Shown here one piece after another: positions 29,306 to 56,088 of a stretch of DNA of 64,000 nt (the stretch's first letter is position 1; every line of letters starts with the position of its first letter). The notes below the pieces were generated by a model that was not told where the DNA came from, did not search any database, and was given only the letters and a program-made list of their open reading frames with translations. Origin of the DNA: Bacteroides timonensis (GTDB lineage Bacteria; Bacteroidota; Bacteroidia; Bacteroidales; Bacteroidaceae); assembly GCF_000513195.1 (NCBI RefSeq), contig NZ_CBVI010000015.1, positions 1-64,000 of the forward strand, in the 5' to 3' direction. The position numbers and the translations under genes were made by a program.

Positions 29306-29663
29306 ATGTTTTCCACGGGCATTGCTGCCAGCATCATCGTGAGGGGCCGTCAGATACGTGGCTGCCACTTCAATGCTGGTGAAGTTGGGCACATGCGAGT
29401 GGGAGTGTCGGTAGGGGTAAGCTGCGCACGTCTACTGTGCAACCAGTATGACATGCGTCTGCTGATACCGGGTGATGATGAGTGTGTGTCGGTGGAGGAA
29501 GTGTTCCGGCTGAGTCGTGAGGGTGACCCGTTGTGTGTGAAGCTGGTAGAGAACGCTGTGGCGGCATGTAGTTATTACCAAGCTCAACCCGAGATTCATT
29601 TGCCTGCTGGGTGCTGGAGCTTTGGCTATCGACGGCATGGAGGAGTTGATGAGCGAGAAATAG
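29306..29663 (+). pseudogene. Remnant of a ROK-family sugar kinase
   Basis: Matches the intact ROK kinase of this window (62703-63644) in pieces. Frame 1 has STGIAASIIV, RQIRGCHFNAGEVGHMRVGV, then jumps over the region that holds the zinc-binding cysteine cluster (about 20 residues lost) to ARLLCNQYDMRLLIPG and GDPLCVKLVENA. After a second deletion of about 55-60 residues it continues in another frame from 29568 with VVITKLNPRFICLLGAGAL to TAG at 29661-29663. The N-terminal ATP-binding part is absent. It cannot encode an active kinase. It lies between the GH9 cluster and the capsule recombinase. Confidence 0.85.
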
Positions 29664-29728
29664 TTTGAACAGATTACTTTCTTTTTTGTCGTACATAGTA
29701 TATATTTCTATAAATTGATAATAAAACT

Positions 29729-30955
29729 ATGGCGACTGTAAAAGTAAAATTCAGAAAATCATCGGTGGAGGGAAAAGCCGGTACTATCTATTACCAGCTA
29801 TGCCACAAGCAAAGCAACAGGCAGATAACCACCCGAATGCGTGTACTTCCCCATTGGTGGGATGCAGAAAAAGAAACATTCATAGCCGAAGCGGACAACA
29901 ATGGGTTGTCGGCCCGCTACCAACCGCAAATAGAGAAAGACTTGCTATGCATCCGTCAGATTCTATGCGAATGGGACGGAGAAGGAAGAGACTACACTTT
30001 AGCGGATGTCATTGACCGCTTTCGTACTTTGAATGAAAACGGAGACACAGTGCTGTCTTGTTTGGCAACCCTGGTCGGTAAGCTTAAAAACGATGACCGG
30101 TGGGGAAATGCCCGCAATCTCCAACGGGCATCGAACAGCTTCTCCGACTTCCTGGGAGGCTTAGACATACCACTCAAGCAGGTAGACGAAAAACTTGTCA
30201 TGGAGTATGAGCAATGGCTCCGGACACGAAAAGTGAGCAAAAACAGCAGTTCTTTTTATATGCGGACTTTGCGCTCTGCTTATAATAAGGTGATAAGCCA
30301 GAATCAAATGGAACAAACATTTCCTTTTCGGAATGTTTATACCGGTGTGGAGCGCACCCGCAAACGTGCCGTACCCGAAGATATCATGGTTCGTTTACAA
30401 AAACTGGACCTGACACATTCTGCTCCGCTTGCCTTTTCTCGCGACATGTTTATTTTCAGTTATTGCACCCGTGGAATGGCTTTTGTAGACATTGCCTATC
30501 TGAAAAAGGAAGATGTAAGTGGAGGAATACTTAGTTATGTCCGCCATAAGACGGGACAACGCCTCACTGTTCGCATAGAGCCTCTTATTGAAGAGATTAT
30601 CGAGCGCTACGAGCCATTTGTTCACAACAGTCCCTACCTTTTTCCAATTATTACGTCCAATGATCCGGAAGAGGCTTTCCGACAATATCAGACGGCGCTG
30701 GGCTATCATAACCGGAAATTGAAGAAACTGGGGAAGTTGACAGGAGAAAATCTACATCTCTCCTCCTATACCGCAAGGCATAGCTGGGCGACGGTTGCAC
30801 GCAAACACAACGTCCCGTTGTCCGTCATAAGTGCAGGTATGGGACACACTTCAGAGAAGACTACGCTCATATACTTGGATTCTGTAGAAAATTCACTGAT
30901 AGACAAGGCTAATGAAGAGATTTTAGAGGCGTTATGTCGTACCGTTTCTAAGTAA
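29729..30955 (+). CDS. Tyrosine site-specific recombinase of the capsule locus
   Basis: 408 residues. An Arm-type N-terminal domain (about 1-90), a SAM-like core-binding domain (about 105-205) and a C-terminal catalytic domain. Likely catalytic residues: Arg in FSYCTRGMAFVDIAYL, Lys in YVRHKTGQRL, His/Arg in SSYTARHSWATVA, His in GMGHTSEKTT and the Tyr nucleophile in LIYLDS. It stands directly upstream of a segment with inverted repeats and of upxY, the usual place for the invertase that flips a capsule promoter. Its last five codons and stop lie inside the left repeat, so inversion leaves its C-terminus unchanged. Confidence 0.9.
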   Translation: MATVKVKFRKSSVEGKAGTIYYQLCHKQSNRQITTRMRVLPHWWDAEKETFIAEADNNGLSARYQPQIEKDLLCIRQILCEWDGEGRDYTLADVIDRFRTLNENGDTVLSCLATLVGKLKNDDRWGNARNLQRASNSFSDFLGGLDIPLKQVDEKLVMEYEQWLRTRKVSKNSSSFYMRTLRSAYNKVISQNQMEQTFPFRNVYTGVERTRKRAVPEDIMVRLQKLDLTHSAPLAFSRDMFIFSYCTRGMAFVDIAYLKKEDVSGGILSYVRHKTGQRLTVRIEPLIEEIIERYEPFVHNSPYLFPIITSNDPEEAFRQYQTALGYHNRKLKKLGKLTGENLHLSSYTARHSWATVARKHNVPLSVISAGMGHTSEKTTLIYLDSVENSLIDKANEEILEALCRTVSK

Positions 30956-30960
30956 GAAAC
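30939..30960 (+). repeat. Left inverted repeat of the invertible promoter segment
   Basis: 22 bases that match the reverse complement of 31258-31279 perfectly. The core GTTTCT-AAGTA-AGAAAC is a dyad of two 6-base arms around a 5-base centre, the typical design of a tyrosine-recombinase crossover site. It spans the recombinase stop codon. Confidence 0.9.
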
Positions 30961-30975
30961 CTTAAAATTACGGCG

Positions 30976-31007
30976 CAAAGATATAACAAATAAAAGAATA
31001 AAACAAC
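30976..31007 (-). promoter_or_regulatory. Capsule promoter, currently facing away from the operon
   Basis: The minus strand reads GTTG (31007-31004), 20 bases, then TATCTTTG (30983-30976), a full -7 match with a good -33. In this orientation it would make antisense RNA into the 3' end of the recombinase gene. Confidence 0.8.
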
Positions 31008-31200
31008 ATAATACTATAAATATTTGTTTATATTTTACTCTCAAAAAAAATATAAAATATTGATTTTTAAGACAATAAACAATTGCTTATACAAAAAAGA
31101 AATGAATAGATATTTAAAACAGATGCTAATATAGAACTCGATAGATATATTCTAAAAAAATTATCCATACATCGTACCGAATCTACAAAACCTATAAAAA

Positions 31201-31227
31201 TAGGATAAAAAGAGACTCTTTATCCTA
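31201..31227. terminator. Hairpin inside the invertible segment
   Basis: TAGGATAAA (31201-31209) and TTTATCCTA (31219-31227) form a perfect 9-bp stem with a 9-base loop. In the present orientation it could stop transcripts leaking from the recombinase gene. After inversion it would lie upstream of the promoter and not affect the operon. Confidence 0.5.
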
Positions 31228-31257
31228 CAGGACTTCAATGCCTTAAAACGTTGTGCC

Positions 31258-31279
31258 GTTTCTTACTTAGAAACGGTAC
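31258..31279 (-). repeat. Right inverted repeat of the invertible promoter segment
   Basis: Perfect reverse complement of 30939-30960 (22 of 22 bases), with the core GTTTCT-TACTT-AGAAAC. The opposite centre sequence sets the sites in inverted orientation, so recombination would flip the DNA between them rather than delete it. Confidence 0.9.
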
Positions 31280-31299
31280 AATTACAGGGTTACGGATAC

Positions 31300-31320
31300 C
31301 TTCTCCTGGGTCAGGAGAAG
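31300..31320 (+). promoter_or_regulatory. Leader hairpin upstream of upxY
   Basis: CTTCTCCT (31300-31307) and AGGAGAAG (31313-31320) form a perfect 8-bp stem with loop GGGTC. It lies in the 5' leader shared by the operon, about 140 bases before upxY. There is no U run, so a pause or antiterminator-loading site is more likely than an intrinsic terminator. UpxY proteins act on the leaders of their own operons. Confidence 0.55.
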
Positions 31321-31459
31321 TCCCGAGTTCCAAAAATCGACATACAAAACGAAGAATTGGATTAACCTTGCTTGCTGCGCATCAGAGTTGTTTTAAAGAT
31401 CAAAAATACTCAGATACGCAGGAATGGAAGGAACATCTTTTAGGTGAGATACGACAAAT

Positions 31460-31996
31460 ATGGAAGAGGCATCTTCAATAATGCATTGGTATGCATTCAA
31501 AGTCTTTTACAACAAAGTATTTGAGATAGAAGACACGCTGAATAAAGACAAAATCGAGAGCTATATTCCTTGTGAAACAATCCTTATGGAGCGTGGCGGA
31601 GTGAAAAAACACATGCGTAAGCCGATCATTTCCTCCCTTATGTTCTTCCATTCCACAGAGCAACAAGCATTGGCCTTACAGCAGAAGCTGGCAGACCGAG
31701 TTCTACTATATACCCGTCTTGTCAATTGGCAAAAGCTGCCGATAGCTATTCCCGAACGGGAAATGAAAATTTTCATGCTTGTCACTTCCTCCGGAGAGAA
31801 AGGGCTGGACTATTTCGGCGACGTCCCCATGAAGTACAGCACCGGTGAACGGGTGCTTGTTACGGACGGTCCATTCAAGGGAGCAGAAGGCTGTATACAC
31901 CGCATCAAAGGAAATCGTCGCCTGATAGTGGCAATACAAGGTGTGTGTGCGGTGGCAACCGCCTATATTCCCCAATGCTTTCTCAGGAAGATATAA
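31460..31996 (+). CDS. UpxY family transcription antiterminator
   Basis: 178 residues, NusG-like. The N-terminal NGN domain (MHWYAFKVFYNKVFEIED; RKPIISSLMFFHS) and the C-terminal KOW motif (GERVLVTDGPFKGAEGCIH) are clear. UpxY lets RNA polymerase read through early termination in the long capsule operon it heads. ATG at 31481 is an equally good start. It lies downstream of the invertible promoter. No UpxZ gene, the usual trans-acting inhibitor partner, follows; the next gene is the WecA-like transferase. Confidence 0.92.
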   Translation: MEEASSIMHWYAFKVFYNKVFEIEDTLNKDKIESYIPCETILMERGGVKKHMRKPIISSLMFFHSTEQQALALQQKLADRVLLYTRLVNWQKLPIAIPEREMKIFMLVTSSGEKGLDYFGDVPMKYSTGERVLVTDGPFKGAEGCIHRIKGNRRLIVAIQGVCAVATAYIPQCFLRKI

Positions 31997-32041
31997 ATCA
32001 ATACATTTAAACAAGCTCTCACCTAATCAAACCCTTCAGAA

Positions 32042-33145
32042 ATGACAACCTGCTATTTTGAAACTTTGGCGGCATTCGCCGTCAGCTGCCTGCTCAGTGC
32101 AATGATTATTCCCAAGATATCGCTGATAGCTTTCAGGCGGCGACTTTTCGATCCGTTGGATGACCGAAAATTGCATACTACACACATTCCCCGTCTGGGG
32201 GGAGTCGCCTTTTTTCCGTGCATCGCTGTAGCCATTTCGCTCGTCATCGCCTGCCATAATCTTTGCACGGACAGCAACTTGCTCTGTTGGGAACAGTCCA
32301 CCTGCCTGCTTACCCTGTTCAGCAGCCTCTTCATCCTTTACCTGATGGGAATGAAAGACGATCTGATAGGCATGCGCTACCGCGCTAAGTTTGTCATCCA
32401 AACACTTTGCAGCCTTTTATTGGTGGTCTCCGGCTTTTGTTTCGACAATCTCTACGGATTGTTTGGCATACACGAGTTACCCCATTACGTAGGCATACTG
32501 TTCACAGTCTTTATCATTGTCTATATAATGAATGCGATTAATCTTATAGACGGCATCGATGGCCTGGCTTCCGGATTGAGCATGATAGCCTTCTTCGCAT
32601 TCGGTTCCATGTTCGTCTGTCTGTACCAGTGGTTATATGCCTTTATCTCCTTTGCGGCTTTGGGGACACTGATACCGTTCTTCTATTATAATATGTTCGG
32701 GCAGCCTCGTCGCGGTCGGAAAGTGTTCATGGGAGATACCGGCTCATTGACTATCGGTCTGTTGCTGGCTGTAATGGCCATTCATCTCAGCATGTCCGAT
32801 CCCGCCAAGGAAGAACTCTTTCCCGGTGCTATTGTGACGGCTTTCTCCTTCCTGCTGGTGCCGATGCTGGACGTAGTTCGGGTAGTGCTTCACCGCCTGC
32901 GCAACCATCAACCTCCGTTTCTCCCCGACAAAAATCATATCCACCATAAATTCATCGCCCTGGGCATGTCTCAACATCAGGCACTCTGCTTCATCCTGAG
33001 TATCGCCTGGCTTTTTATTATTGCCAATACACTCTTAGCCTCTTACCTGTCCGTCACCGTACTGTTCCTGCTGGACGTAGCGGTATGGACAGCGATGCAC
33101 TTCTACATCACAGCAAAAATTACAAAAAAACACCCAAGAAATTAA
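32042..33145 (+). CDS. Undecaprenyl-phosphate sugar-1-phosphate transferase (WecA/MraY family)
   Basis: 367 residues with about ten membrane helices. Diagnostic motifs are NAINLIDGIDGLASGLSM (active-site Asp), KVFMGDTGSLTIGLLLA and the histidine-rich cytoplasmic loop PDKNHIHHKFIALGMS. It moves a HexNAc-1-phosphate (GlcNAc-1-P or similar) to undecaprenyl phosphate, the first step of repeat-unit assembly. It is the first biosynthetic gene after upxY, 45 bases downstream. Confidence 0.92.
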   Translation: MTTCYFETLAAFAVSCLLSAMIIPKISLIAFRRRLFDPLDDRKLHTTHIPRLGGVAFFPCIAVAISLVIACHNLCTDSNLLCWEQSTCLLTLFSSLFILYLMGMKDDLIGMRYRAKFVIQTLCSLLLVVSGFCFDNLYGLFGIHELPHYVGILFTVFIIVYIMNAINLIDGIDGLASGLSMIAFFAFGSMFVCLYQWLYAFISFAALGTLIPFFYYNMFGQPRRGRKVFMGDTGSLTIGLLLAVMAIHLSMSDPAKEELFPGAIVTAFSFLLVPMLDVVRVVLHRLRNHQPPFLPDKNHIHHKFIALGMSQHQALCFILSIAWLFIIANTLLASYLSVTVLFLLDVAVWTAMHFYITAKITKKHPRN

Positions 33146-33180
33146 TACTTCATATTTCTATTTTATATTAAAATTAAAAC

Positions 33181-33975
33181 ATGAAAAATCATCTTTTATA
33201 CTTGCTATTGTCGTTGGTATTGCTCTCATCGTGCAACACATCGAAAGAGATAATCTATTTTCAGGACGTGGAGGTAAACAGCCCCGAAGCGGTAACCCCA
33301 CCCCAGGACATCACCGTTCAACCCAAGGATCAGATATCCATCGTAGTGTCGAGCAAGGACCCCGAACTGGCGGCTTTGTTCAACCTAACCCGCGTGCAGC
33401 AGAGAGTTGGCTCCACAGGACTGAACAACAGTAACAACAACGGAGAAATTTCCGGATATACGCTTGACGACAAAGGCGCCATCGACTTTCCCGTATTGGG
33501 AAGCCTCACCATAGCGGGTATGACCCGGAGCCAGATTGCCGCATTGGTAAAACAAAGACTGAAGGAAGAGAACCTGGTAAACGACCCGGTGGTCACCGTG
33601 GAGTTTATGAACCTCAGCTTCTCCGTCCTGGGCGAAGTGAAGACTCCCGGGAAATACAGTATCTCGAAAGACTATATAACCTTGCTGGAAGCTATCAGCA
33701 TGGCCGGTGACCTTACCATCTACGGCAAGCGGGATGCCATCTTCGTGATCCGTGAAGAAAAAGGAGAACGGGTGACGCACTGGGTGGATCTCCGTTCCTG
33801 CGATTTATTCAAATCTCCCGTTTATTACCTGAAACAAAACGACGTGGTGTATGTGCAGCCCAACAAGGTACGCGCCGGACAATCCACACTGAATGAAAAC
33901 AGCGTGAAGAGCGTAGGATTATGGATTAGCATAGGATCATTCCTCACCTCTCTGGGTGTATTACTGTTTAAATAA
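33181..33975 (+). CDS. Polysaccharide export lipoprotein (Wza family)
   Basis: 264 residues. Lipoprotein signal YLLLSLVLLSSC with Cys at about 19. A Poly_export domain follows (about 40-130; PPQDITVQPKDQISIVVSSK), then a SLBB domain (about 140-220; SFSVLGEVKTPGKYSISKDY). The C-terminal helix LWISIGSFLTSLGVLLF would form the outer-membrane pore. It forms the capsule exit channel and works with the Wzc-like kinase whose gene begins 12 bases later. Confidence 0.93.
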   Translation: MKNHLLYLLLSLVLLSSCNTSKEIIYFQDVEVNSPEAVTPPQDITVQPKDQISIVVSSKDPELAALFNLTRVQQRVGSTGLNNSNNNGEISGYTLDDKGAIDFPVLGSLTIAGMTRSQIAALVKQRLKEENLVNDPVVTVEFMNLSFSVLGEVKTPGKYSISKDYITLLEAISMAGDLTIYGKRDAIFVIREEKGERVTHWVDLRSCDLFKSPVYYLKQNDVVYVQPNKVRAGQSTLNENSVKSVGLWISIGSFLTSLGVLLFK

Positions 33976-33987: not shown

Positions 33988-36375
33988 ATGATTGAAAAGA
34001 AAACACTTGCCGGCAAACCCACTGATGATTTTATACGGATACAGGATCTGTGGAGCATGTTTGTTCCCAAGTGGTACTGGTTCGCTATCTCCCTATTCAT
34101 TACCCTGACTATAGCGGTGTTGTACCTGCTGAGTACTCCTCCTATTTACACCCGTACCGCTGCCATTCTCGTCAAGGACAACTCGAAAAGCAGTTCTTCT
34201 ACCGGCGTGACGAGCGATTTTTCCGATTTGGGTATCTTCAAGTCCAATACCAACATCAACAACGAGTTGCTGACATTAAAATCGCCCACACTGATGACGG
34301 AGGTGGTCAACCGGTTGGGATTGAATGAAACCTTCACCATCCGCAAAGGATTAAAGAACGTAGATTTGTACAAGGTATCCCCTGTCACCATTACCTTCTG
34401 CGACAAGGTAGAAACTCCATTAAGCTTCAACATCAAGTTCCTTTCAAAAGAAGCGTTTGCCATTTCCGAACTTGAAATATCGGGAGAAGACACAGGGGAA
34501 ACACTCTCCGCCCAAATGGGCGACTCCATACAGACCCCTGCCGGAATCATGATCATATCCCCTACACAAGAGTTTACCGACGCTTTTATAGGCACATCTA
34601 TCCGGTACGTCCGGGGAAGCGTGCGCGCTGCCGTCGATACCTATGCAAATGCATTGGTCGCTGAATTGGGTAACGAAGATGCCACTATCATCAACCTCAG
34701 CATCAATGACACTTCCATCCGGAAAGCGGAAGACATCCTGAATACCCTGATCGAGGTTTATAATGAGAACTGGATTCGGGACAAAAACCAGATTGCCGTC
34801 AGCACCTCGCAGTTCATTAGCGACCGCCTGGGCGTGATAGAGAGCGAATTGGGCCATGTAGACGAAAATATCTCCAGCTACAAAAGCGAGCACTTGCTAC
34901 CCGACGTACAGGCGGCATCCAGTCTCTACATGGCGCAGTCCGCTGAGAACAAGAAAGAACTGTCAACGCTGAACAACCAGCTCTCCACCGCCCAATATAT
35001 CCGCAGAGAACTGAACACAAAACAGTTGGACCAAACGCTGTCCGCCAATTCAGGCATCGTCAGCGCCAATATAGAAACGCAGATCAGTGAATATAACAAT
35101 CTGGTGCTGGATCGCAACCGATTGATAGCCAACAGTAGCGAAAAAAATCCGTTGGTAAAAAACATGGCCAGTTCCCTACAGAGTATGCAACGAACCATCA
35201 TCCAGTCGGTCGATAATCTGATTGTTTCACTGAATACCCAAATACGTAGTCTCCGCCGTCAGGAAGAGGCTACCACTAACCGGCTGGCATCCAACCCGAA
35301 CCAGGCAAAGTATTTACTGTCAGTAGAACGCCAGCAGAAAGTAAAGGAAGAACTTTATCTCTATCTGCTACAAAAGCGTGAAGAAAACGAACTCTCACAA
35401 GCATTTACCGCCTACAACACCCGCCTGATTACCGCTCCGCGCGGCAGTATGTTTCCTACCGCTCCCCGCAAGATGAATATCCTGTTGGTGGCATTTGCCG
35501 TAGGATTACTGGTTCCGGCAGTAGGCATCTTCATGAAGGAGAACATGAATACCAAAGTACGCGGTCGGAAGGATCTGGAAAATCTGAGCATCCCATTCAT
35601 AGGCGAGATTCCCCAATACTCCGGCACAAAGAAAAAATGGTGGGAATTCAAGCACCGGAAGCGGCAGGACATGAAAACCATAGTGGTGAATGAGGGCAAT
35701 CGCAACATCATCAACGAGGCATTCCGTGTGTTACGTTCCAACATGGATTTCATGGCAAACAAAGACAACAACCAACATGTTTTCGTATTGACCTCATTCA
35801 ATCCCGGCAGTGGAAAAAGTTTCCTGGCCATAAACATCGCCATAAGCTTCGCTATCAAAAAGAAGAAAATCCTAGTCATTGACGGAGACCTCCGGCACAG
35901 AACCGTCTCTTCTTATGTTGATTCTCCGAACAAGGGATTAAGCGACTACCTGAACAATCAGATTGAAGACTGGAAGGAAATCATAGTTTCCTACAAGGGA
36001 TACACGAACCTGCACATCCTGCCCATCGGAACAGTACCTCCCAATCCAACGGAACTACTGGAAGACAGCAAGTTGGCTATGCTGATAGAGGCATTAAGAC
36101 CGGAATATGATTATATCTTCATAGACTGTCCTCCTGTTGACATCGTAGCCGACGCACAAATTATTGAAAAATGGGCGGATCGCACCATTTTCGTAGTCCG
36201 CTCCGGCTTGCTGGACCGGTCCATGCTTTCCGAACTGGAAAATATGTATACCGGAAAACGATTTAAAAACCTCTCCATGATACTGAACGGAACTGAAAGT
36301 ATCGGAGGACGTTACGGCTATCGCTACAGATACCATTACGGTTATGCTTCCTATTATGGCAGTAAAGATAAATAA
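33988..36375 (+). CDS. Wzc-type polysaccharide co-polymerase and tyrosine autokinase
   Basis: 795 residues. Two membrane helices (about 34-52 and 500-520) bracket a periplasmic Wzz domain with long coiled coils. The cytoplasmic BY-kinase has Walker A FNPGSGKSFLAINIAI, Walker A' ILVIDGDLRHRT and Walker B YDYIFIDCPPVD. It ends in a tyrosine cluster RYGYRYRYHYGYASYYG, the autophosphorylation tail. Cycling of this tail controls chain length and export. The predicted phosphatase gene follows 5 bases later. Confidence 0.94.
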   Translation: MIEKKTLAGKPTDDFIRIQDLWSMFVPKWYWFAISLFITLTIAVLYLLSTPPIYTRTAAILVKDNSKSSSSTGVTSDFSDLGIFKSNTNINNELLTLKSPTLMTEVVNRLGLNETFTIRKGLKNVDLYKVSPVTITFCDKVETPLSFNIKFLSKEAFAISELEISGEDTGETLSAQMGDSIQTPAGIMIISPTQEFTDAFIGTSIRYVRGSVRAAVDTYANALVAELGNEDATIINLSINDTSIRKAEDILNTLIEVYNENWIRDKNQIAVSTSQFISDRLGVIESELGHVDENISSYKSEHLLPDVQAASSLYMAQSAENKKELSTLNNQLSTAQYIRRELNTKQLDQTLSANSGIVSANIETQISEYNNLVLDRNRLIANSSEKNPLVKNMASSLQSMQRTIIQSVDNLIVSLNTQIRSLRRQEEATTNRLASNPNQAKYLLSVERQQKVKEELYLYLLQKREENELSQAFTAYNTRLITAPRGSMFPTAPRKMNILLVAFAVGLLVPAVGIFMKENMNTKVRGRKDLENLSIPFIGEIPQYSGTKKKWWEFKHRKRQDMKTIVVNEGNRNIINEAFRVLRSNMDFMANKDNNQHVFVLTSFNPGSGKSFLAINIAISFAIKKKKILVIDGDLRHRTVSSYVDSPNKGLSDYLNNQIEDWKEIIVSYKGYTNLHILPIGTVPPNPTELLEDSKLAMLIEALRPEYDYIFIDCPPVDIVADAQIIEKWADRTIFVVRSGLLDRSMLSELENMYTGKRFKNLSMILNGTESIGGRYGYRYRYHYGYASYYGSKDK

Positions 36376-36380
36376 AACTC

Positions 36381-37130
36381 ATGTGGCCATTTTCTAAATC
36401 CCAGCCCGTCGCGGCAAGCGGCATCCTTTGCGAAATGAACGACTACCACTCCCACATATTGCCCGGGGTGGACGATGGCGTGAAGACAATGAACGAGTCA
36501 CTTCAGATTCTTGCGGAGATGAAACACCAAGGAGTCCGCAAAGTGTGGTTTACTCCCCATATCATGGAAGATATACCCAATACCAATGCCGGGCTGAGAG
36601 AACGATTTCAAGAATTGAAAGAAAAATTCCGGAAGCCGGAAGATACCTATCTCGGCACGGTGGAACTGAATCTGGCCGCTGAATACATGATGGACAGCCT
36701 CTTCGCGGAGCGTCTTGAGGCCGACGACCTGCTTCCGATCTACGAAGGCGGTTGCCGGTATCTGCTGGTTGAAACCACCGGTTTCACTCCGCCGATGAAC
36801 CTGCTGCCTGTCCTGAAACGCATTCAGACGAAGGGCTACCGGCCTTTACTGGCACACCCCGAACGCTATCTGTATATGGGTACGTCCTACTACTGTATGT
36901 TGAAGCAAGAACAGGTTGCTTTCCAGTTGAACCTTCCGTCACTGACGGGAGCATACGGCACGTATATACAAAAAAAGGCCGTATCCCTGCTGAAAGCAGG
37001 GATGTACGACCTGACAGGAACCGATATGCATTCTTCAAAACATTTCAAAGAATGGCTCGGAACACGGATTGACAGTCGAGACAGGGACATGCTTTGGGCA
37101 CACTTCCCGGCATGTCGCGATGGCCTCTGA
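36381..37130 (+). CDS. CpsB/CapC-type tyrosine phosphatase (PHP domain)
   Basis: 249 residues. The PHP metal site is seen in NDYHSHILPGVDDGVKTMNE, VWFTPHIMED, LLAHPERYLYM and LTGTDMHSS. It probably dephosphorylates the Wzc-like tail. Length is normal. Its last 86 bases overlap, antisense, the 3' end of the amidase gene, an unusually deep convergent overlap. After LTGTDMHSS the C-terminal 25 or so residues look less conserved, so the overlap may have reshaped the tail. Confidence 0.9.
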   Translation: MWPFSKSQPVAASGILCEMNDYHSHILPGVDDGVKTMNESLQILAEMKHQGVRKVWFTPHIMEDIPNTNAGLRERFQELKEKFRKPEDTYLGTVELNLAAEYMMDSLFAERLEADDLLPIYEGGCRYLLVETTGFTPPMNLLPVLKRIQTKGYRPLLAHPERYLYMGTSYYCMLKQEQVAFQLNLPSLTGAYGTYIQKKAVSLLKAGMYDLTGTDMHSSKHFKEWLGTRIDSRDRDMLWAHFPACRDGL

Positions 37131-37751: not shown

Positions 37752-38255
37752 TCACCCCAGCGGGTTTTCATCCAATCCTCCACCTCCGGGATTGTCGCTT
37801 CCGCCTTCATCATCCACGTCACCCGGGTCGGAGGAATTCACCTGCTTGATGACGTTTCCTTCCTTGTCGTAGCAGGTAATGTTGATGGAGGCTCCCTTCA
37901 GTTCCTGCTTGATGGTGGTACTGGGGGTGAAGATAACCTTGCGGGTGGTGATGAGTCCCGAACTCACATCCTCCACTTTGGCCACCGCCGCGGCTTGCAG
38001 GCCGAAGCGCATGGTACCCAGTCCGGGCACAGCGACAGAGTGCCCCTCGGTGGCCCATGCCTTGATGACTTCGCCAATAGCTTGCCAGGAGGCGTTAAGG
38101 GTTCCCTTCGGAATCCCCGACCGGATGGAGGCTTCGGATACTACTTTTTCCTGCTTCAGCGTGCTGTAGATTTCAGCCTGCATGATGAAGCGATATTCCC
38201 CCTTTGAGGGGCCTACCGCCAGTTTGGTCTGACGGGCTTTTACTTTGATTCCCAT
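37752..38255 (-). CDS. HU-like (HU-HIG) DNA-binding protein
   Basis: 167 residues. A variant HU fold: N-terminal strands (KVKARQTKLAVGPSKGEYRF), helices about 30-70 (VSEASIRSGIPKGTLNASWQ), the beta-arm region around 75-110 (VAVPGLGTMRFGLQAAA), and an acidic Gly/Asp-rich tail (GDVDDEGGSDNPGGGG). The tail is longer than in classical HU (about 90 residues). It probably bends or coats DNA in this module. A strong inverted repeat lies 35 bases upstream of its start. Confidence 0.87.
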   Translation of the reverse strand: MGIKVKARQTKLAVGPSKGEYRFIMQAEIYSTLKQEKVVSEASIRSGIPKGTLNASWQAIGEVIKAWATEGHSVAVPGLGTMRFGLQAAAVAKVEDVSSGLITTRKVIFTPSTTIKQELKGASINITCYDKEGNVIKQVNSSDPGDVDDEGGSDNPGGGGLDENPLG

Positions 38256-38289
38256 AATCTCAATAAAATTTAGTTAATAATGATGAGTG

Positions 38290-38317
38290 GTAAAGTAGTA
38301 TGTACGTACTACTTTAC
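38290..38317. repeat. Inverted repeat upstream of the HU-like gene
   Basis: GTAAAGTAGTA (38290-38300) and TACTACTTTAC (38307-38317) are perfect 11-bp arms around TGTACG. It may be an operator for the HU-like protein, or a terminator for DUF4248, whose stop is 81 bases upstream in transcription order. Confidence 0.65.
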
Positions 38318-38397
38318 TAACTCAAGAAGCTGTGGGCAAAGATATGACAGGGTGAAACCCGGCTTATGGGTTTCGGTGGGTTTTGCAAGTTTCCTCT

Positions 38398-38592
38398 TTA
38401 CGGGTCGCCCAGGTGGCGTACAATTAGTGACACTTGCCGGGAGGTGAGCAACTTCTGCGAGCGATGGTAGCCAGCGGCTTCCAGCTCCTCCATCAGGAGA
38501 GGACAGCCGTGAATCCAGCGCATCAGACGGTTAGTAGCCACCGCAGGTATTGAATCGGGAAAATACAGCAGAGCCAATTCACTCTTCTTCAT
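38398..38592 (-). CDS. DUF4248 family small protein
   Basis: 64 residues from the ATG at 38592, which gives the usual family start (MKKSELALLYFPDS). An upstream ATG at 38613 would add seven residues. It ends RSQKLLTSRQVSLIVRHLGDP-like, matching my recall of DUF4248. It is helical and basic, possibly helix-turn-helix. It lies between the HU-like and DUF3987 genes in the same antisense module. The function is unknown. Confidence 0.75.
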   Translation of the reverse strand: MKKSELALLYFPDSIPAVATNRLMRWIHGCPLLMEELEAAGYHRSQKLLTSRQVSLIVRHLGDP

Positions 38593-38683
38593 GGAAATGG
38601 GATGGAAAAACATTGTAAGAAAATTAAAAATTAAAATTGAAAAAAGAAGGTCCGCAGGGTGCTCTATTTGGAACTTTTTTTTC

Positions 38684-38722
38684 CCTAACTGGAGAAAAAT
38701 ATTTTCCTAACTGGAGAAAAAA
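38684..38722. repeat. Tandem direct repeat CCTAACTGGAGAAAAA
   Basis: Two 16-base copies (38684-38699 and 38706-38721), 22 bases apart, lie in the 236-base spacer between DUF4248 and DUF3987 (38614-38849). The spacer also holds the AACTTGCA repeats at 38741-38785 and an alternating purine-pyrimidine ACACACGTATGCATATACAC stretch near 38803-38826. Confidence 0.75.
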
Positions 38723-38740
38723 CGGGCTTGTGAAACTAGT

Positions 38741-38785
38741 GCAAGTTTGCAAACTTACAAAACTTGCAAACTTGCAAAACTTGCA
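38741..38785 (+). repeat. Iteron-like AAACTTGCA repeats
   Basis: Four AAACTTGCA-like units, about 8-9 bases apart, follow the 14-bp perfect palindrome AAGTTTGCAAACTT (38743-38756). A very similar run, inverted, lies inside the DUF3987 gene at about 40346-40372. Phased short repeats beside primase/helicase genes recall replication-origin iterons. No function is shown. Confidence 0.6.
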
Positions 38786-38849
38786 GGGCCTCCTTGCCCC
38801 CCCACACACGTATGCATATACACACGCATGCGAGGGCGGCTCCGGGCAC

Positions 38850-40658
38850 TCACTTAAATTTGTACTCTCCACGGCAGGCGTGACCCAGCCGGCCTTTGTC
38901 TGCCATGCGTTTCAGCATGGAGTCTATCGTGCCGGGAGCCATTCCACACCGTTCGCCCTCCAGCAGGGCCTGAGCACGGGTGAAGCTGAGAGGAAGCCTG
39001 TCAAAGAACGACTCCTGCGACGCTTTCGGCTGCGACACGACATCCGCGGACGGAAGGAACGAAAGTATATGGCACGAATGAAAGTACAGAGGTTCCGCAA
39101 GTGCGAGCGCCGCATGGAAATCATCATCACTTACGCTGAGCTCAAACCGCGGCACCACTCCGTCCTGCACGTTCTCTTGTGGAATATGGGGTGCGGGAGA
39201 CAATCCCGGACATGACATCAGCATCCGCACGATGTTGTCCGGCACCATTTCGGCCTCCGTCAGCAAGGCATCGAGCGAACGCAGCAACGCCACGACGCTG
39301 ATGATTCGACAGATATTGATGGCAATGCGCACCACAGCGCTTCGCATGGAGTCGCCATGAACCGCGCCCGCACGGCCGAACACGCACGAAAGGTGAGCGT
39401 TGAACTCCTCCTTCTGCCTCCCGGTGAGCTTCAGGCTTATGCCGCTAACGGCTGCCTTCAGTGCATCGAGCCACAGTTTCCAACGCTCGCCCCAGGCGGT
39501 GAACATGCGGTCGTAGTCCGTTTCGGAGTGACCGAACTGATCCATCCACTCATCTACGGCAGGCATGTAGTAGAACACCTGGCGCGAGAAGAGCCCGTTC
39601 TCTACCGATGGAATAAGCGGCTTTACCTGCGCGGGGGTTCCGCTGAGCAGTACACTGAGGTATGATTTGGGGCATTCACGATATTCATGATTGGTGCGGC
39701 GATTGTAGGCCAGCCTCTCATGGTCAAAGCTTTTGCGGAGCGTGTCGCTCCAATGGCCGTAGTCGGCGCCTATGGCCGCGCTCACGGTGTCAGCCTCGGT
39801 TTCGCATATCAGCCCGGCACCTTCGGCATCCATCAGGTTTTCCATCATACCTGCTCCGGAATTGTCTCCCGCAATGAGAAACATCTTCATGAGAGGTGGT
39901 TCGGGTTCAGGGATGTTAGCCTTCTCCTTGCCCATCGCGTCCCATTTCGCTTTTTCCAAGCGATAGGCTTTCGTCTTTGTGTAGTAGGCTTGCATCAGCG
40001 AGTCGTGCATAGGCTCTACCAAGCGGCGTACCCACGTCAGCGCTCCTTTTCCGGAAGCGGCGGGGGCAATGACAAAAGTTTGCAGGCACGGATATTTGCT
40101 TTTTCGCCCGTAGGTGAAGCTCAACAGCCTGTTAATGGAAGCACCGAATACGGTCACCGCTCCCAGCAGCAGGATGTCCCTTTGTGCGGACGTATCTCCA
40201 CAGTCTATGACCTGTTGGAGGAATCCGGGCCACCGGTAGTCCGGAAAACAAGGCAGAGAGACGAATATGGGTTCAGCGGACAGCTTCTTCGTTTGTTCCG
40301 TTTGCTTCTGCTCACGCACGCACGTGTGTGTGGGGGCGAGGGGAGCCTGCAAGTTTTGCAAGTTTGCAAGTTTCTTGTCGAGGCGCACCCCTGCCAGTTG
40401 CGCCAGATGCAATACTGTTCCCAGGGAATTACCTCCCCGTCCGTGCTGCAAGGCATGGCTGTAGAGCTTGTCCGCTTCATCCTGCCGGTACTTGTCGGAC
40501 AAGCGGCAAAGGCGGTGGAAAAAGCCGCGTCCCGCTTCACCGCAACTGTTGCCCACGGCAAAGGCCAATGGCATGTATTCCTGATAAGTGGGGGCAAGAT
40601 TGACTCCTGCCTGTTCTACGGCAATGGTCAGTTGTTCTATTATGTCAAGATCGTTCAT
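38850..40658 (-). CDS. PriCT-2/DUF3987 ATPase (primase-helicase partner)
   Basis: 602 residues. The N-terminal PriCT-2-like domain (about 1-95; YQEYMPLAFAVGNSCGEAGR, RLSDKYRQDEADKLYSHAL) is followed by a linker rich in KLANLQNLQAPLAP and then a DUF3987 domain. The P-loop is VIAPAASGKGALTWVRRL (about 190-207), and an acidic patch lies in LICETEADTVSAAIGADYG. It resembles the helicase half of mobile-element primase-helicases. The primase half is probably the next gene upstream (40739-41299). The linker DNA carries the same repeat as the 3' spacer, in inverted orientation. Confidence 0.82.
   Translation of the reverse strand: MNDLDIIEQLTIAVEQAGVNLAPTYQEYMPLAFAVGNSCGEAGRGFFHRLCRLSDKYRQDEADKLYSHALQHGRGGNSLGTVLHLAQLAGVRLDKKLANLQNLQAPLAPTHTCVREQKQTEQTKKLSAEPIFVSLPCFPDYRWPGFLQQVIDCGDTSAQRDILLLGAVTVFGASINRLLSFTYGRKSKYPCLQTFVIAPAASGKGALTWVRRLVEPMHDSLMQAYYTKTKAYRLEKAKWDAMGKEKANIPEPEPPLMKMFLIAGDNSGAGMMENLMDAEGAGLICETEADTVSAAIGADYGHWSDTLRKSFDHERLAYNRRTNHEYRECPKSYLSVLLSGTPAQVKPLIPSVENGLFSRQVFYYMPAVDEWMDQFGHSETDYDRMFTAWGERWKLWLDALKAAVSGISLKLTGRQKEEFNAHLSCVFGRAGAVHGDSMRSAVVRIAINICRIISVVALLRSLDALLTEAEMVPDNIVRMLMSCPGLSPAPHIPQENVQDGVVPRFELSVSDDDFHAALALAEPLYFHSCHILSFLPSADVVSQPKASQESFFDRLPLSFTRAQALLEGERCGMAPGTIDSMLKRMADKGRLGHACRGEYKFK
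40346..40372 (-). repeat. Inverted copy of the AACTTGCA repeat inside the DUF3987 gene
   Basis: The minus strand reads AAACTTGCAAACTTGCAAAA and on into a CTTGCAGG-CTCC-GCCCCC-ACACAC tract (about 40313-40345). This closely follows 38760-38815 on the plus strand. The two copies are about 1.5 kb apart, facing each other, and enclose most of the DUF3987 domain. Confidence 0.7.
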
Positions 40659-40738
40659 GAAAACATTTATGATTTATGATTTATGGGCTGAGGGAACTTT
40701 AGTAATACTAATTTGTAATTCGTAATTTGTAATTCGCC
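40659..40738. repeat. Simple-repeat spacer between DUF3987 and the primase gene
   Basis: Tandem ATTTATGATTT units (about 40670-40685) are followed by TTTGTAATTCGTAATTTGTA units (40710-40735). The first type also occurs in the murA spacer, and TAATTCGTAATTTG-like words recur near 37700-37722. Confidence 0.55.
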
Positions 40739-41299
40739 CTAAATTTTGCACTTCGCTTCTTCATCGTATGCCAGGAAACACGCTCTCGACATATCAGCGT
40801 TGGCGGTATCGGCTTTCAAGCCGTGCTTCCATTCCAGATAGTCCCAGGCGGTGTGCACCGCATTGTCAAACGACTGTTCAAGCGTATCCGTAAGATTCAG
40901 TCGGTAGGGTACAAAGAGTTTCACTCCTTTAGCACCGGGGCTTACGAAGACAAGGTCGGGTTGCAGCACTTCGTCGGCAAAGAGGCAGTCACGCCACATT
41001 GCAGCTTCTTCGGTAGAAGCAAGATGATCGATATCTATCACGAATAGTCCGGAGGGTACCATGATACACTGCTCCCGACAGTACGAAAAGATTCCGGCAG
41101 GCGTGACGTAAGGCAATAACGTCTGCTTTTTTCCACGGAATGCCTTATCATTTTCCATATCGGCCCTTACTCTTTTTGTCAGTTCCTTCAGACAGGAATC
41201 GGAAGAGATATAGGCATGAAGTCCTGCTACGCCGCACACCCCCGCAGGTATCTTGTTGGTGATGGGAGCGTTGAAAAAAGACATGATATATTCTTTCAT
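40739..41299 (-). CDS. BT4734/BF3469-type primase (VirE N-terminal domain family)
   Basis: 186 residues. The archaeo-eukaryotic primase pattern is visible: the catalytic acid pair in GLFVIDIDHL (DxD) and a glycine-rich substrate motif in VFVSPGAKGVKLFVPY, followed by ADMSRACFLAYD. Such stand-alone domains are usually paired with DUF3987, as here (81-base gap). It probably makes primers for an element-encoded replication event. It is the first gene of the antisense module and has a -7 box upstream. Confidence 0.83.
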   Translation of the reverse strand: MKEYIMSFFNAPITNKIPAGVCGVAGLHAYISSDSCLKELTKRVRADMENDKAFRGKKQTLLPYVTPAGIFSYCREQCIMVPSGLFVIDIDHLASTEEAAMWRDCLFADEVLQPDLVFVSPGAKGVKLFVPYRLNLTDTLEQSFDNAVHTAWDYLEWKHGLKADTANADMSRACFLAYDEEAKCKI

Positions 41300-42057: not shown

Positions 42058-42630
42058 GTGTTTATACAAAAGACAAACGTAGAGGGTTTGGCCATCATTA
42101 AGCCACGCCTTCTCAAAGACGCACGCGGTTACTTCTTCGAGTCTTTCTCCCAACGGGAATTCGAAGAGAAAGTGCGCAAGGTGAATTTCGTGCAGGACAA
42201 TGAGAGTATGTCATCTTACGGAGTGATGCGTGGACTTCATTTTCAGAAGCCGCCTTTTGCACAAAGTAAACTGGTGCGTTGCGTAAAAGGCAGCGTGCTT
42301 GATGTGGCGGTAGACATTCGTAAAGGTTCGCCTACATACGGTGAATATGTAGCCATAGAACTGTCGGAAGACAATCATCTTCAGTTCTTTATTCCCAGAG
42401 GTTTTGCACACGGTTTTGCCGTACTGAGCGAGGTGGCTGTATTTCAATACAAATGTGATAACTATTATGCTCCGCAAGCTGACGGTGGAATCAGTATCTT
42501 GGATGAAGGTATAGGGATAGACTGGAAAATACCGGTTGATAAAGCGATACTTAGCGAGAAAGACATGAAGCATCCGTTGCTGATGGATTTTGAGAGTCCG
42601 TTTGAGTATGGGGTGGGGCTTTATGAGTGA
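42058..42630 (+). CDS. rfbC: dTDP-4-dehydrorhamnose 3,5-epimerase
   Basis: 190 residues with a GTG start at 42058. Cupin fold with the RmlC motifs DARGYFFESFSQREFEE, VMRGLHFQKPPFAQSKLVRC (catalytic His), LDVAVDIRKGSPTYGE and FIPRGFAHGFAVLSE. It epimerises dTDP-4-keto-6-deoxyglucose at C3 and C5 on the way to dTDP-L-rhamnose. No rfbA, rfbB or rfbD is in this window, so it depends on copies elsewhere. It probably supplies L-rhamnose for the capsule. Confidence 0.93.
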   Translation: MFIQKTNVEGLAIIKPRLLKDARGYFFESFSQREFEEKVRKVNFVQDNESMSSYGVMRGLHFQKPPFAQSKLVRCVKGSVLDVAVDIRKGSPTYGEYVAIELSEDNHLQFFIPRGFAHGFAVLSEVAVFQYKCDNYYAPQADGGISILDEGIGIDWKIPVDKAILSEKDMKHPLLMDFESPFEYGVGLYE

Positions 42631-42672
42631 TGAATGTGGTTACAACAGGTTTCCACGAATAATTAAAATACA

Positions 42673-42765
42673 ATGGAGCAAAACAGGAACTCCGCATTAG
42701 ACATTGCAAAGGCTATTTGTATCGCTTCATCTATATATTCCACATACCTTGCTTTTTCCTTATAA
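42673..42765 (+). pseudogene. Remnant of an acyltransferase-3 gene
   Basis: 30 codons: MEQNRNSALDIAKAICIAS then a foreign tail to TAA. The opening matches the usual N-terminus of acyltransferase family 3 membrane proteins in capsule loci (NxxLDIAKAICI). The rest of the gene is gone. It lies in the 273-base spacer between rfbC and the flippase. The rest of that spacer is AT-rich and shows nothing else. Confidence 0.6.
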
Positions 42766-42903
42766 GTGATTATTAAATCCCTTAGATAGAATATTAAAAT
42801 AATCTCTTAGTTCATTTATAGTTCTTCAAATCTTACTAAATGCGAAGCGGTAATAGCTTTGAATTTATAAAATTTAGATATGACACAAATTGAAAAATAA
42901 TAT

Positions 42904-44445
42904 ATGACTTCTACCAATAATAAGCGAATAGCGAAAAACACCATATATCTTTACATAAGAACAATTATAACATTATTGATATCACTGTATACTTCACGAA
43001 TTTTTTTAGAAGTTTTAGGAGTTATAGATTTAGGTATATATAATGTTGTAGGAGGTATTGTAGTTATGCTATCATTTTTAAATACAATGATGGCAGCTGG
43101 TACACAACGTTTCTTATCCTATGAGTTAGGAGGGAATAATGATCCCAAACAATTGAAAAAGCTATTTTCGATACTTTTTTTTATCCATGTTTTGGTCGCC
43201 ATAGTTTTGTTCATTCTGGCTGAAACAATAGGATTATGGCTTTTCTATAATAAACTTATTATTCCACAAGAAAGACTTACTGCTGCAATGTGGGTATTTC
43301 AATTTTCTGTTTTATCTGCTATAGTCACAATAACTCAAGTCCCTTATAATGCCTCTATAATTGCCCATGAGAAGATGAATGTCTTTGCTTATATTACAAT
43401 AGTCCAAACTTTTGCAAAACTACTTGTTGTATATGCAATAATGTTGATAGATTATGATAAACTAAAGCTTATTGCTATTCTTAATTTCTCAATCATACTC
43501 ACTACAACATTTGTTTATCGCTCATATTGTGAAAGAAAATTCCAAGAGTGCATATTGAAATTTCATTGGGATACATCATTGTTTAAATCATTAATCAGCT
43601 ATTCAAGTTGGAATTTGTTCGGTGCTTTTTCAAATGTTGTAGCCGATCAAGGAATCAATGTATTATCTAACTTATTCTTTGGACCAACGGTAAATGCTTC
43701 TCGTGCCATATCGTTTCAGATTAAATCTGCACTAACTTCATTTGTTTCTAATTTTCAAACAGCAGTCAATCCTCAAATAATAAAGTCATATGCAAGTAAA
43801 GATTACGAATACATGAAAACACTTATTATGGGAACGGCGAAATACTCATTTTTATTACTATTATTCTTTGCTTTTCCTATAATATTAGAAACAAAATATA
43901 TATTAAAATTATGGTTAGGTACTATACCTGAATATTCTGTTACCTTTTGCAAATTAATATTAATTAGCGCCTGCATAGATTGCCTATCTGGTCCTTTGGT
44001 AACAGCAGTACAAGCAACCGGCAGAATAAAAATTTATCAAATAACTGTTGGAGTAGTACTAATGCTAACATTTCCTATTTCCTATGTAATATTGTTATTA
44101 ATACAAGTTCCCGAAAGTCCTTTTTATGTAAGCATATTTATTTCATTTTTATTGATAGTAATAAGAATCGTATTATTAGAAAGAGTCATAAGACTATCAT
44201 TACTTACATGCTATAAGCAAATTGGCAGCCGTTTGTTACTTGTATTGATTCCACCTTTACTATGTTCAATGGCTGTTTTTCTTCTGATAGATGAAGGTTT
44301 TAATCGTTTTTTGGTAAATATATTCGTTTCAGCAATTAGCATACTGCCCTCAGCGTATTTCATCGGATTAACTAAAATTGAGAGAAAATGTATCAAAGAT
44401 TATGTGGTTAAGAAACTGGTTAATAAAAAGAAAACAAAAGTATAA
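42904..44445 (+). CDS. Oligosaccharide flippase (Wzx family)
   Basis: 513 residues with 12-14 predicted membrane helices. The family opening RIAKNTIYLYIRTIITLLIS and LGVIDLGIYNVVGGIVVMLS is typical of capsule flippases. It moves the lipid-linked repeat unit across the inner membrane for Wzy. The gene is strongly AT-rich, unlike the flanking export genes, as are most genes up to 55726. The next gene starts inside its 3' end. Confidence 0.9.
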   Translation: MTSTNNKRIAKNTIYLYIRTIITLLISLYTSRIFLEVLGVIDLGIYNVVGGIVVMLSFLNTMMAAGTQRFLSYELGGNNDPKQLKKLFSILFFIHVLVAIVLFILAETIGLWLFYNKLIIPQERLTAAMWVFQFSVLSAIVTITQVPYNASIIAHEKMNVFAYITIVQTFAKLLVVYAIMLIDYDKLKLIAILNFSIILTTTFVYRSYCERKFQECILKFHWDTSLFKSLISYSSWNLFGAFSNVVADQGINVLSNLFFGPTVNASRAISFQIKSALTSFVSNFQTAVNPQIIKSYASKDYEYMKTLIMGTAKYSFLLLLFFAFPIILETKYILKLWLGTIPEYSVTFCKLILISACIDCLSGPLVTAVQATGRIKIYQITVGVVLMLTFPISYVILLLIQVPESPFYVSIFISFLLIVIRIVLLERVIRLSLLTCYKQIGSRLLLVLIPPLLCSMAVFLLIDEGFNRFLVNIFVSAISILPSAYFIGLTKIERKCIKDYVVKKLVNKKKTKV

Positions 44446-44959
44446 TGATTTATGCTTTATCAAACAATTAAAAGATAAAAATATATATCTAATTTATCCA
44501 TTTGTTATCTCAAAACGAGAAAATTTAGTAATATCAGATAATGTTTATATCGGACCAAACGCATGGATAATACTTAGAGCAAATGGAAAACTACGTATTG
44601 ATGAAGGGTGCATTATTGGACCAAGATTAAAATGCCTTGTTGCCAATCACAATTATGAAGATAATATGTTACCGTATTCCTCAGAATATATAGTTAAAGA
44701 TATATGGATAGAAAAAAATGTATGGATTGGAACTGATGTGACAATTTTACCTGGAGTCCATATAGGTGAGGGCGCAATTATTGGTGCTTGCGCTGTTGTT
44801 ACAAATAATATTCCCCCTTGCGCTATAGCCGCCGGAAATCCTTGTCAAGTAATCAAATATCGAGACAAACAAAAATACTTAGAGTGTAAGGATAGTGGGA
44901 AAATATATATGAAAACAAAAAACAGTGGTCATTCCTATAAACATATTATCAAATATTAG
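44402..44959 (+). CDS. Hexapeptide-repeat acyltransferase
   Basis: 185 residues from ATG 44402, overlapping the flippase by 44 bases (a TTG at 44378 is possible). The left-handed beta-helix pattern is seen in ISDNVYIGPNAWIILRANG, LRIDEGCIIGPRLKCLVANH, WIEKNVWIGTDVTILPGVHI and GAIIGACAVVTNNIPPCAIA. The ending GNPCQVIKYRD is typical of O-acetyltransferases of the maltose/serine type. It probably O-acetylates a capsule sugar. Confidence 0.87.
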   Translation: MWLRNWLIKRKQKYNDLCFIKQLKDKNIYLIYPFVISKRENLVISDNVYIGPNAWIILRANGKLRIDEGCIIGPRLKCLVANHNYEDNMLPYSSEYIVKDIWIEKNVWIGTDVTILPGVHIGEGAIIGACAVVTNNIPPCAIAAGNPCQVIKYRDKQKYLECKDSGKIYMKTKNSGHSYKHIIKY

Positions 44960-44961
44960 AT

Positions 44962-46092
44962 ATGAAAAATATCCTTGTAACGGCATACACTTCTTTTAAT
45001 GTAGGTGATGATTTATTTCTCAAAATTTTATTTGAAAGATACCCTGATCATCAATTTATATTATTCACTTCTGAAACTCGATACATTTCACATTTGAAGC
45101 AATATAAAAATGTAAAAGTAGAATATTTTTCCAAATATGAAAATCTTTTTTTTAGAATTGCTAAAAAAGAAATTTCAGCACAATGTAAGTTATTGGCATT
45201 TATTTATAAAATATTAATTAAACGGAAATATGGAAATAAATGTGATGCATACTTAGAAATAGGTGGATCTATTTTCATACAAAAGAATAAAAAGTTGTCC
45301 TTTAAAGAGTATAAAAACAAATATATAGTTTCTATATTTAAACATAAACCATTATTTATTATTGGTGCTAATTGGGGACCATACAAAACACAAGAATTTA
45401 AAGATTTCTACACAAATTGGTTTAACAACTTTACAGATATTTGTTTTAGAGACAAAACATCATACAATCTCTTTTCAAATCTACTCAACGTACGGAACGA
45501 ATGCGATATTGTATTTCAATTAAATCTGCCTAAAGTACAAAAGGAAAGGGAAAGCATAGGATTCTCCGTCATTAACTTAACAGGAAGGAATGACTTGTCC
45601 AAATATGAACCGATTTATATTAAAACTATCAGTTCTTTGATTTCCACATCACTTTTTCGAGGTAAGAGTGTGTATTTGATTTCATTCTGCCGTTCTGAAG
45701 GGGATGAATTAATGATAGAAAAAATTAAATCTTGTTTGTCTAATTATGATAAGAGTAGAATAAGCACCTTACTATACAAGGGTGATTTAGAATCATTTTT
45801 AATTGAATACACTCGTATAGAATCAATTGTTGCAACTCGTTTTCACGCAATGATTTTAAGCTTAATTTCGAAACAAAAACTATTCCCTTTGATCTATAGT
45901 CAAAAGATGTTTAATGTAATTCAAGATATACAATTTAAGGGATACTATTGCCAGATTAAAGAACTTAGTCAAAATTCATCAGATGATATATTTAACCAAA
46001 TAGAAGAAAACAAAGTCTTTTTATTAAACAATGAAAAAAAATCTGCAGAAAAACAATTTTTAAACTTAGATAAGTTTCTAAATCATGGCTGA
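44962..46092 (+). CDS. Polysaccharide pyruvyl transferase family protein
   Basis: 376 residues. N-terminal VTAYTSFNVGDDLFLKILFE is the usual NxGDD opening of this family. LFIIGANWGPYKTQEFKDFY lies mid-protein, and the C-terminal VATRFHAMILSLISKQKLFP carries the conserved RxH. It probably adds a ketal pyruvate from PEP to a capsule sugar, making the polymer acidic. Very AT-rich. The next gene starts 8 bases before its end. Confidence 0.82.
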   Translation: MKNILVTAYTSFNVGDDLFLKILFERYPDHQFILFTSETRYISHLKQYKNVKVEYFSKYENLFFRIAKKEISAQCKLLAFIYKILIKRKYGNKCDAYLEIGGSIFIQKNKKLSFKEYKNKYIVSIFKHKPLFIIGANWGPYKTQEFKDFYTNWFNNFTDICFRDKTSYNLFSNLLNVRNECDIVFQLNLPKVQKERESIGFSVINLTGRNDLSKYEPIYIKTISSLISTSLFRGKSVYLISFCRSEGDELMIEKIKSCLSNYDKSRISTLLYKGDLESFLIEYTRIESIVATRFHAMILSLISKQKLFPLIYSQKMFNVIQDIQFKGYYCQIKELSQNSSDDIFNQIEENKVFLLNNEKKSAEKQFLNLDKFLNHG

Positions 46093-50249: not shown

Positions 50250-50322
50250 GGCTACATTCTAAAATATCCATATCTTAGGGATACAACAGATAGCCAAATG
50301 ATTTTTCATTAAATATAAAAAC

Positions 50323-55726: not shown

Positions 55727-55963
55727 GGACTTGTTATCGAAGCTGACAACCATTTAACCGGAACTATAAATCTTATTTCAGAACTTTATTGGATTAAGGC
55801 GGATTATCATATCCATCTTTTCTCCGGAGAAGAACGAATAGAAGGATAACACAATGCTCACTTTCAATTTTAAGTGAGATTTGGAGAGGTTTAAGCCTAT
55901 ATTAATAAGACGCGCAATCATACTCCAACTATTCTTCAAGATTATTCATTATACGGCAATCTC

Positions 55964-56062: not shown

Positions 56063-56088
56063 TACTGAAACTGAAAGGAATAAATCGT

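Follow-up and report, generated by a model that had tools for sequence, protein, structure and literature searches.

A probable phase-variable capsule promoter of Bacteroides timonensis and a covarying leader RNA that may serve its UpxY antiterminator

The DNA examined here, a 64,000-nucleotide stretch of a Bacteroides timonensis contig (hereafter the window), carries ahead of a capsule operon an element that is very probably a phase-variable promoter, judging from its own layout and that of its relatives. A 408-residue recombinase would act at two palindromic sites and invert the segment between them. In the window the capsule is read as OFF because the promoter is aimed away from upxY and towards the recombinase gene, whose 3' end it would transcribe; once flipped, its transcript would cross the right repeat and a structured 114-nt leader before reaching upxY and the capsule genes. 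This subfamily of UpxY, or a transcription complex carrying UpxY, may then recognise the folded leader, and UpxY would keep the polymerase going across no fewer than the first five genes. In such a scheme, DNA inversion would open the promoter and the RNA-UpxY pair would sustain transcription. The inversion half is supported by relatives in which the segment is inverted, and the RNA half is suggested by covariation and by the pairing of the leader with one group of UpxY proteins. The parts of the switch are the following.

29729-30955, plus strand: tyrosine recombinase gene, 408 aa, with its stop codon inside the left repeat
30939-30960, plus strand: left inverted repeat, core site GTTTCT-AAGTA-AGAAAC at 30944-30960
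30961-31257: invertible segment of 297 bases, in OFF orientation in the window
30976-30983, minus strand: predicted -7 box TATCTTTG, directed towards the recombinase gene (OFF)
31004-31007, minus strand: -33-like box GTTG, 20 bases from the -7 box
31200-31228, minus strand: terminator-like hairpin of 13 bp with only 3 G-C pairs and a T-rich tail
31258-31279, minus strand: right inverted repeat, core site at 31258-31274

The original prediction described perfect 22-nt repeats around 297 bases, with a site core made of GTTTCT, a 5-base centre and AGAAAC. Both features are indeed present: the arms are 22 nt each, 100% complementary and 297 nt apart, and each holds one copy of GTTTCT-N5-AGAAAC, a pattern found in only these 2 places in the 7.0-Mb assembly. 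There is no other perfect inverted repeat of at least 14 nt with a gap of 60-1000 nt in the 64-kb window, and among 200 Markov-1 resamples of 29401-33400 chance repeats reached at least 14 nt in 2 and at least 16 nt in none. The exact 18-mer site has no match in IMG/VR. Just outside the core, the left arm reads GTACC in the window and GTAAC or GTGAC in five relatives, so that identity over the full 22-nt arm is peculiar to the window genome. Since each arm is palindromic and the right arm folds as RNA, the repeats could be imagined as an RNA hairpin or terminator only, unrelated to DNA inversion. We consider this barely credible, given that near-identical relatives are inverted with ends at the repeats and that a T-run is absent after either arm.

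Promoters of Bacteroides typically combine a -7 element TAnnTTTG with a TTG-like -33 element. Between 30000 and 32100, the box at 30976-30983 is the sole TAnnTTTG preceded by a TTG 18-22 nt upstream, a combination that occurs 12 times in the whole window on both strands. This sole Bacteroides-type box found inside the repeats lies on the minus strand, in agreement with the earlier claim of one promoter aimed away from upxY. No plus-strand TAnnTTTG occurs within 30939-31460, and a second minus-strand copy, devoid of TTG, lies at 31401 in the leader. A sigma-70 scan was uninformative (4 found versus 5.3 expected). An in-silico inversion of 341 bp reproduced two further expectations: the -7 box lands at 31235-31242, and the recombinase, whose stop codon sits in the left repeat, keeps an identical protein sequence. 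This recombinase displays Phage_integrase (36.3 bits) and Phage_int_SAM_5 (58.3 bits) domains, both above the Pfam cut-off, together with an N-terminal arm-type DNA-binding domain that falls just below it; in the NCBIfam scan no family exceeded its cut-off. Among more distant recombinases from Muribaculaceae, Bacteroidales and Alistipes, four (L024, L029, L031 and L034) have three copies of the site behind them, of which two share a direction (5 and ~89-105 nt after the stop codon) and one is inverted (~317-341), a layout in which more than one flip product is possible.

The whole element is present in 6 of 158 genus genomes, the window genome counted, and its carriers include Bacteroides cellulosilyticus DSM 14838, B. 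oleiciplenus YIT 12058 and B. stercorirosoris DSM 26884. Comparing genomes for a flipped segment, the check proposed with the original prediction, gave a split answer. At the window locus no inverted copy was found (0 of 6 species ON); at a sister locus it was. This sister locus of the same layout, recovered from four genomes (G153, G154, G152 and G048) by a DNA search with the window element, has a recombinase 56-58% identical to that of the window, likewise with its stop codon inside the repeat, and a homologous upxY with its leader; DNA similarity between the window and sister subfamilies extends through the upxY leader. The locus is OFF in G153 and ON in G154: the flanks match at 99.97% over 3435 bp and 99.2% over 3427 bp, and the segment gives a reverse match only (98.8% over 336 bp). 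This is a real inversion. A further version of the same layout, in G037, is also ON. Besides orientation, the sister segment differs in the length of a G/C homopolymer, which is 10 bases in G154 (L151) and 9 bases in G153 (L150), G152 and G048, possibly a second, slippage-type variation.

With the window locus OFF in all six species, switching might have been lost in this genome family, leaving a frozen relic whose capsule is silent or driven by read-through. The recombinase frame is moreover broken near its start in B. cellulosilyticus DSM 14838 (G006, L002), where the break may be genuine or an assembly artefact. Such a loss nevertheless seems very improbable to us. In all six species the 17-nt core is intact and identical at both sites, despite divergence of the intervening segment; five of the six (the window included) have an uninterrupted, full-length recombinase frame; and the same layout is seen ON in G154 and G037.

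A second inversion was found in a wider class of elements, defined here by GTTWC sites in pairs, a CGG within the segment and a spacing below that of the window element. This pattern occurs in at least 28 of 158 genus genomes. Among the matches listed, 30 such loci were examined, of which 21 have a UpxY hit (weak and short at L117) and nine have none; the 21 UpxY-linked loci, again among the matches listed, split into 17 OFF and 4 ON. One class locus stands in opposite orientations in G008 and G014, its segment being 97.0% identical over 304 bp and its flanks 94.8% and 93.7%. The proposal of a phase-variable capsule promoter is therefore supported mainly via relatives, by this flip and by that between G153 and G154. 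The class recombinases (30 loci among the matches listed) measure 313-341 residues from stop to stop and align with that of the window only from about residue 100. With its GTTTC/GAAAC arms and without the class-defining GTTAC/GTAAC arms, the window element is, on the evidence of its sites, a variant of this kind rather than a member of the GTTAC-site class.

The class sites match the repeats published for capsule invertons of B. xylanisolvens and B. thetaiotaomicron, as given in the accessible text of that report (PMC12118408). According to the same text, these invertons consist of palindromic 19-20-bp repeats with an adjacent tyrosine-type invertase, placed before upxY, and in B. xylanisolvens the repeats GTTACTTCTTAGGTAACGGA surround a 290-bp region (PMC12118408). 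As far as this description goes, the published invertons and the window element share 5-7-5 sites and a -7 box ~15-17 bases inside the left site. They differ in the arms (GTTAC/GTAAC versus GTTTC/GAAAC) and in the position of the common CGG flank, which is inside the segment in the published type and outside in the window (PMC12118408). In addition, the window recombinase is longer than the GTTAC-class enzymes, bears an arm domain at its N-terminus and has its stop codon in the repeat. The inversion switch itself is of an already published kind. With respect to the published capsule invertons, what is new by sequence comparison is the other site arms, the longer recombinase ending in its own site and the lack of UpxZ.

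Other capsule loci of the same genome rely on another system. The genome holds 13 UpxY rows, ten of them above the cut-off (the window and nine others), and seven of the nine others have Mpi-type repeats GTTCGTTTAA, only C125 being ON. These repeats are absent from the window locus, the seven pairs lying elsewhere in the genome. Mpi-type invertons were described in B. fragilis and as PVR7-12 in B. intestinalis, with GTTCGTTTAA repeats, segments of 183-186 bp and a serine recombinase acting on many sites (PMC8375218, accessible part). Both the Mpi-type and the window arrangements place an invertible promoter ahead of a capsule operon. The two remaining loci are C86, with a variant repeat and OFF, and C116 (38953-39450, L111), with a single Mpi-like site and an ON-facing promoter. 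Since a simple pattern search revealed no partner site in the 8.4 kb fetched upstream, C116 is perhaps a locked-ON capsule. Overall, one of the nine switchable promoters of this genome is ON, which fits the production of one capsule at a time. A single genome would hold two unrelated capsule inversion systems, one using Mpi-type sites and the other the private site of the window.

An excess of OFF loci is also found where the leader RNA described below is present. A repeat pair accompanies 15 of the leader-linked loci; 12 of these are OFF, 2 are ON and G168 has motifs both ways. The two-sided binomial value for 12 of 14 (0.013) is too favourable, several loci being near-copies. For these orientation counts, 18 distant loci that had been checked for repeats and upxY were excluded. 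This bias, seen at 12 of the 14 orientable leader-linked loci and at the UpxY-linked GTTAC-class loci listed, raises the idea that the OFF state is stabilised by design, with an antisense RNA running across the recombinase gene in OFF and a terminator standing behind this gene only in ON, and with flip rates that differ accordingly. An antisense brake would be favoured by the layout, since in OFF the promoter is directed at the 3' end of the recombinase gene and no minus-strand terminator is listed between the two, the next one being inside the gene at 29835-29818. As to the terminator, a 12-13 bp version of the segment hairpin is present in all six members of the window locus. In the flipped segment it would face right, behind the recombinase gene, a placement predicted to insulate the capsule genes from the recombinase transcript only in ON. 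However, this hairpin contains just 2-3 G-C pairs, and as a general feature it was rejected, being found in 6 of 6 members of the window locus family and in none of the five sister segments tested. An OFF excess is also expected if cells make one capsule at a time, and near-copies among the loci inflate it. We hold a built-in stabilisation of OFF to be unlikely.

Downstream of the switch, the window encodes a recognisable capsule locus.

31460-31996, plus strand: upxY, NusG-paralogue antiterminator (NCBIfam NF033644, 141.8 bits for a cut-off of 100)
32042-33145, plus strand: WecA-like sugar-phosphate transferase (Glycos_transf_4)
33181-33975, plus strand: Wza-like polysaccharide export protein
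33988-36375, plus strand: Wzc-like chain-length determinant / tyrosine autokinase
36381-37130, plus strand: CpsB/CapC phosphatase, the last co-directional gene before three opposite-strand genes
42058-58796, plus strand: glycan genes

The glycan genes include glycosyltransferases, a pyruvyl transferase and a cytidylyltransferase (42.9-58.8 kb), as well as a MatE-like protein just below its cut-off. Three minus-strand genes (37755-41299) with HU-HIG, DUF3987/PriCT_2 and BT4734-like_N domains stand between them and the first five genes, so that a single long transcript is not evident. The plus strand restarts after 41299 with one open reading frame, followed by a dTDP-sugar epimerase. All five relatives have a match to the HU-type gene, and four of the five to the DUF3987/PriCT_2 and BT4734-like_N genes, all three being open where matched. 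In contrast to four other UpxY loci of this genome (all four of those tested among the nine), where upxZ comes next after upxY, the window has no upxZ directly 3' of upxY, the next gene being that of the Glycos_transf_4 protein. The window is matched up to ~42.6 kb in four of five relatives and up to 38.3 kb in G006; past these limits, the 20 kb fetched per relative gave no match longer than 150 bp. From this comparison, the control head appears as a part that is kept among relatives while the sugar genes change.

Between the switch and upxY, the transcript started from the flipped promoter would contain a conserved structured RNA.

31275-31388, plus strand: conserved structured leader RNA of 114 nt with four helices
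31285-31292/31363-31370: leader helix P1
31293-31295/31323-31325: leader helix P2
31300-31307/31314-31320: leader helix P3
31329-31333/31357-31361: leader helix P4

The structure was derived from eight of the aligned rows. In a model-fitted alignment of 12 distinct rows, 14 of the 23 pairs display both-sided changes and 97.5% of the cells are paired; a plain MAFFT alignment of 11 rows gives the same 14 of 23 pairs with 97.2% of the cells paired. Cells paired, double-changed pairs and covariation score each exceeded the values of all 500 shuffles, and the number of double-changed pairs never went beyond 5 in slid controls. Further pair types were no more numerous than in the shuffles in either alignment. 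Taken by itself, the 114-nt element folds with unexceptional energy in three of the four leaders (z of -1.6, -3.9, -1.3 and -0.6), and the longer window leader (31250-31470) reaches a z of -4.5. No Rfam 15 family matched 29500-33500 at its gathering score. The two candidates below that score, U6atac (E 0.027) and fungal SRP (E 1.6), belong to eukaryotic families and were taken as chance.

A covariance model built on this fold gave 12 places spread over 11 of the 158 genus genomes, and a second model gave 8 places in 7 of 349 family genomes (3 of 30 genera), both runs with stricter filters by which some weak matches were lost. Together they give 17 distinct places, all of them with UpxY next to the RNA and 15 with a repeat pair upstream. 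At the two others, in G016 (L163) and G289 (L177), no inverton or recombinase was found; G016 shows an ON-facing TATCTTTG upstream of its leader RNA. The pairing with UpxY is specific to one group. Searched against the 349 family genomes, the window UpxY retrieves eight rows of at least 190 bits (52-100% identity), the other UpxY rows among the matches listed scoring at most 105.8 bits, and these eight are the same eight places as in the RNA search (the two 349-genome samples were taken as identical, their handles agreeing). Tree building with 54 UpxY rows placed all 17 leader-linked sequences in one group with a support of 99/98, five of the 17 having long branches that raised a program warning. 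Conversely, the leader RNA has no match in 57 other loci, which include nine own-genome UpxY loci and 30 of the GTTAC class (21 of these 30 being UpxY-linked), and its presence at the window locus is one more difference from the GTTAC-class loci, in which none was found.

These observations lead us to propose, tentatively and with slightly less than even confidence, that the folded leader recruits this UpxY subfamily, making the locus a phase-variable capsule with a DNA-flip gate and an RNA-guided antiterminator gate in series. UpxY is described as preventing premature termination in the untranslated leader in the accessible portions of two reports (PMC7315117, PMC7819879). The recruitment of NusG paralogues encoded in their target operons was presented as unknown as of 2020 in the part of a third that was available, which also mentions two B. 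fragilis UpxYs without UpxZ (PMC7593976). An intrinsic terminator was sought in the window's own leader and was not found. In G390 (L175), a perfect 8-9 bp hairpin with a T-run lies between the leader RNA and upxY, and would be a candidate antitermination target on the basis of its sequence and position; terminator-like hairpins after the leader element in G016, G037, G168 and G289 are weaker.

The same hairpins may be read differently. The switch could be real and the leader RNA, although inherited with the adjacent upxY, independent of UpxY, working by attenuation, through mRNA stability or by sensing a ligand. This would suit an RNA that lies in cis within a long 5' leader folding well as a whole, the ability of UpxYs of other groups to manage without the element and the attenuator-like location, just 3' of the element, of the G390 hairpin and its weaker counterparts. 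The RNA and UpxY may co-travel merely through adjacency. On the other hand, the leader RNA is kept in G016 and G289 where no inverton was found, it goes with one UpxY group, and no Rfam family matched it. Independence from UpxY is a plausible alternative, which we hold to be less likely than not. UpxY contact with the upstream DNA duplex has also been reported, in the accessible text of PMC12691694, and is possibly another recruitment route.

Recruitment by the leader would have a counterpart in LoaP, whose binding to a single UNCG-type leader hairpin, dfn, has been demonstrated (PMC12691694, accessible text). LoaP and the window UpxY have in common that they are NusG paralogues, serve a long biosynthetic operon and are associated with a conserved RNA structure in the leader. 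They differ in that the LoaP RNA described there is a single hairpin, whereas the leader of the window is a four-helix fold in Bacteroidota, known from covariation and co-occurrence. No paper describing a UpxY leader RNA was found in the literature searched, a search in which most subscription papers were outside scope.

To conclude, capsule switching shapes the encounters of gut Bacteroides with phages, and the locus presented here would add to it a second level of control downstream of promoter inversion. The covarying leader, paired with one UpxY group, offers a defined and testable recognition element. If its recruiting role is true, it would constitute a new RNA family and would make this UpxY subfamily a second RNA-recognising NusG paralogue beside LoaP.
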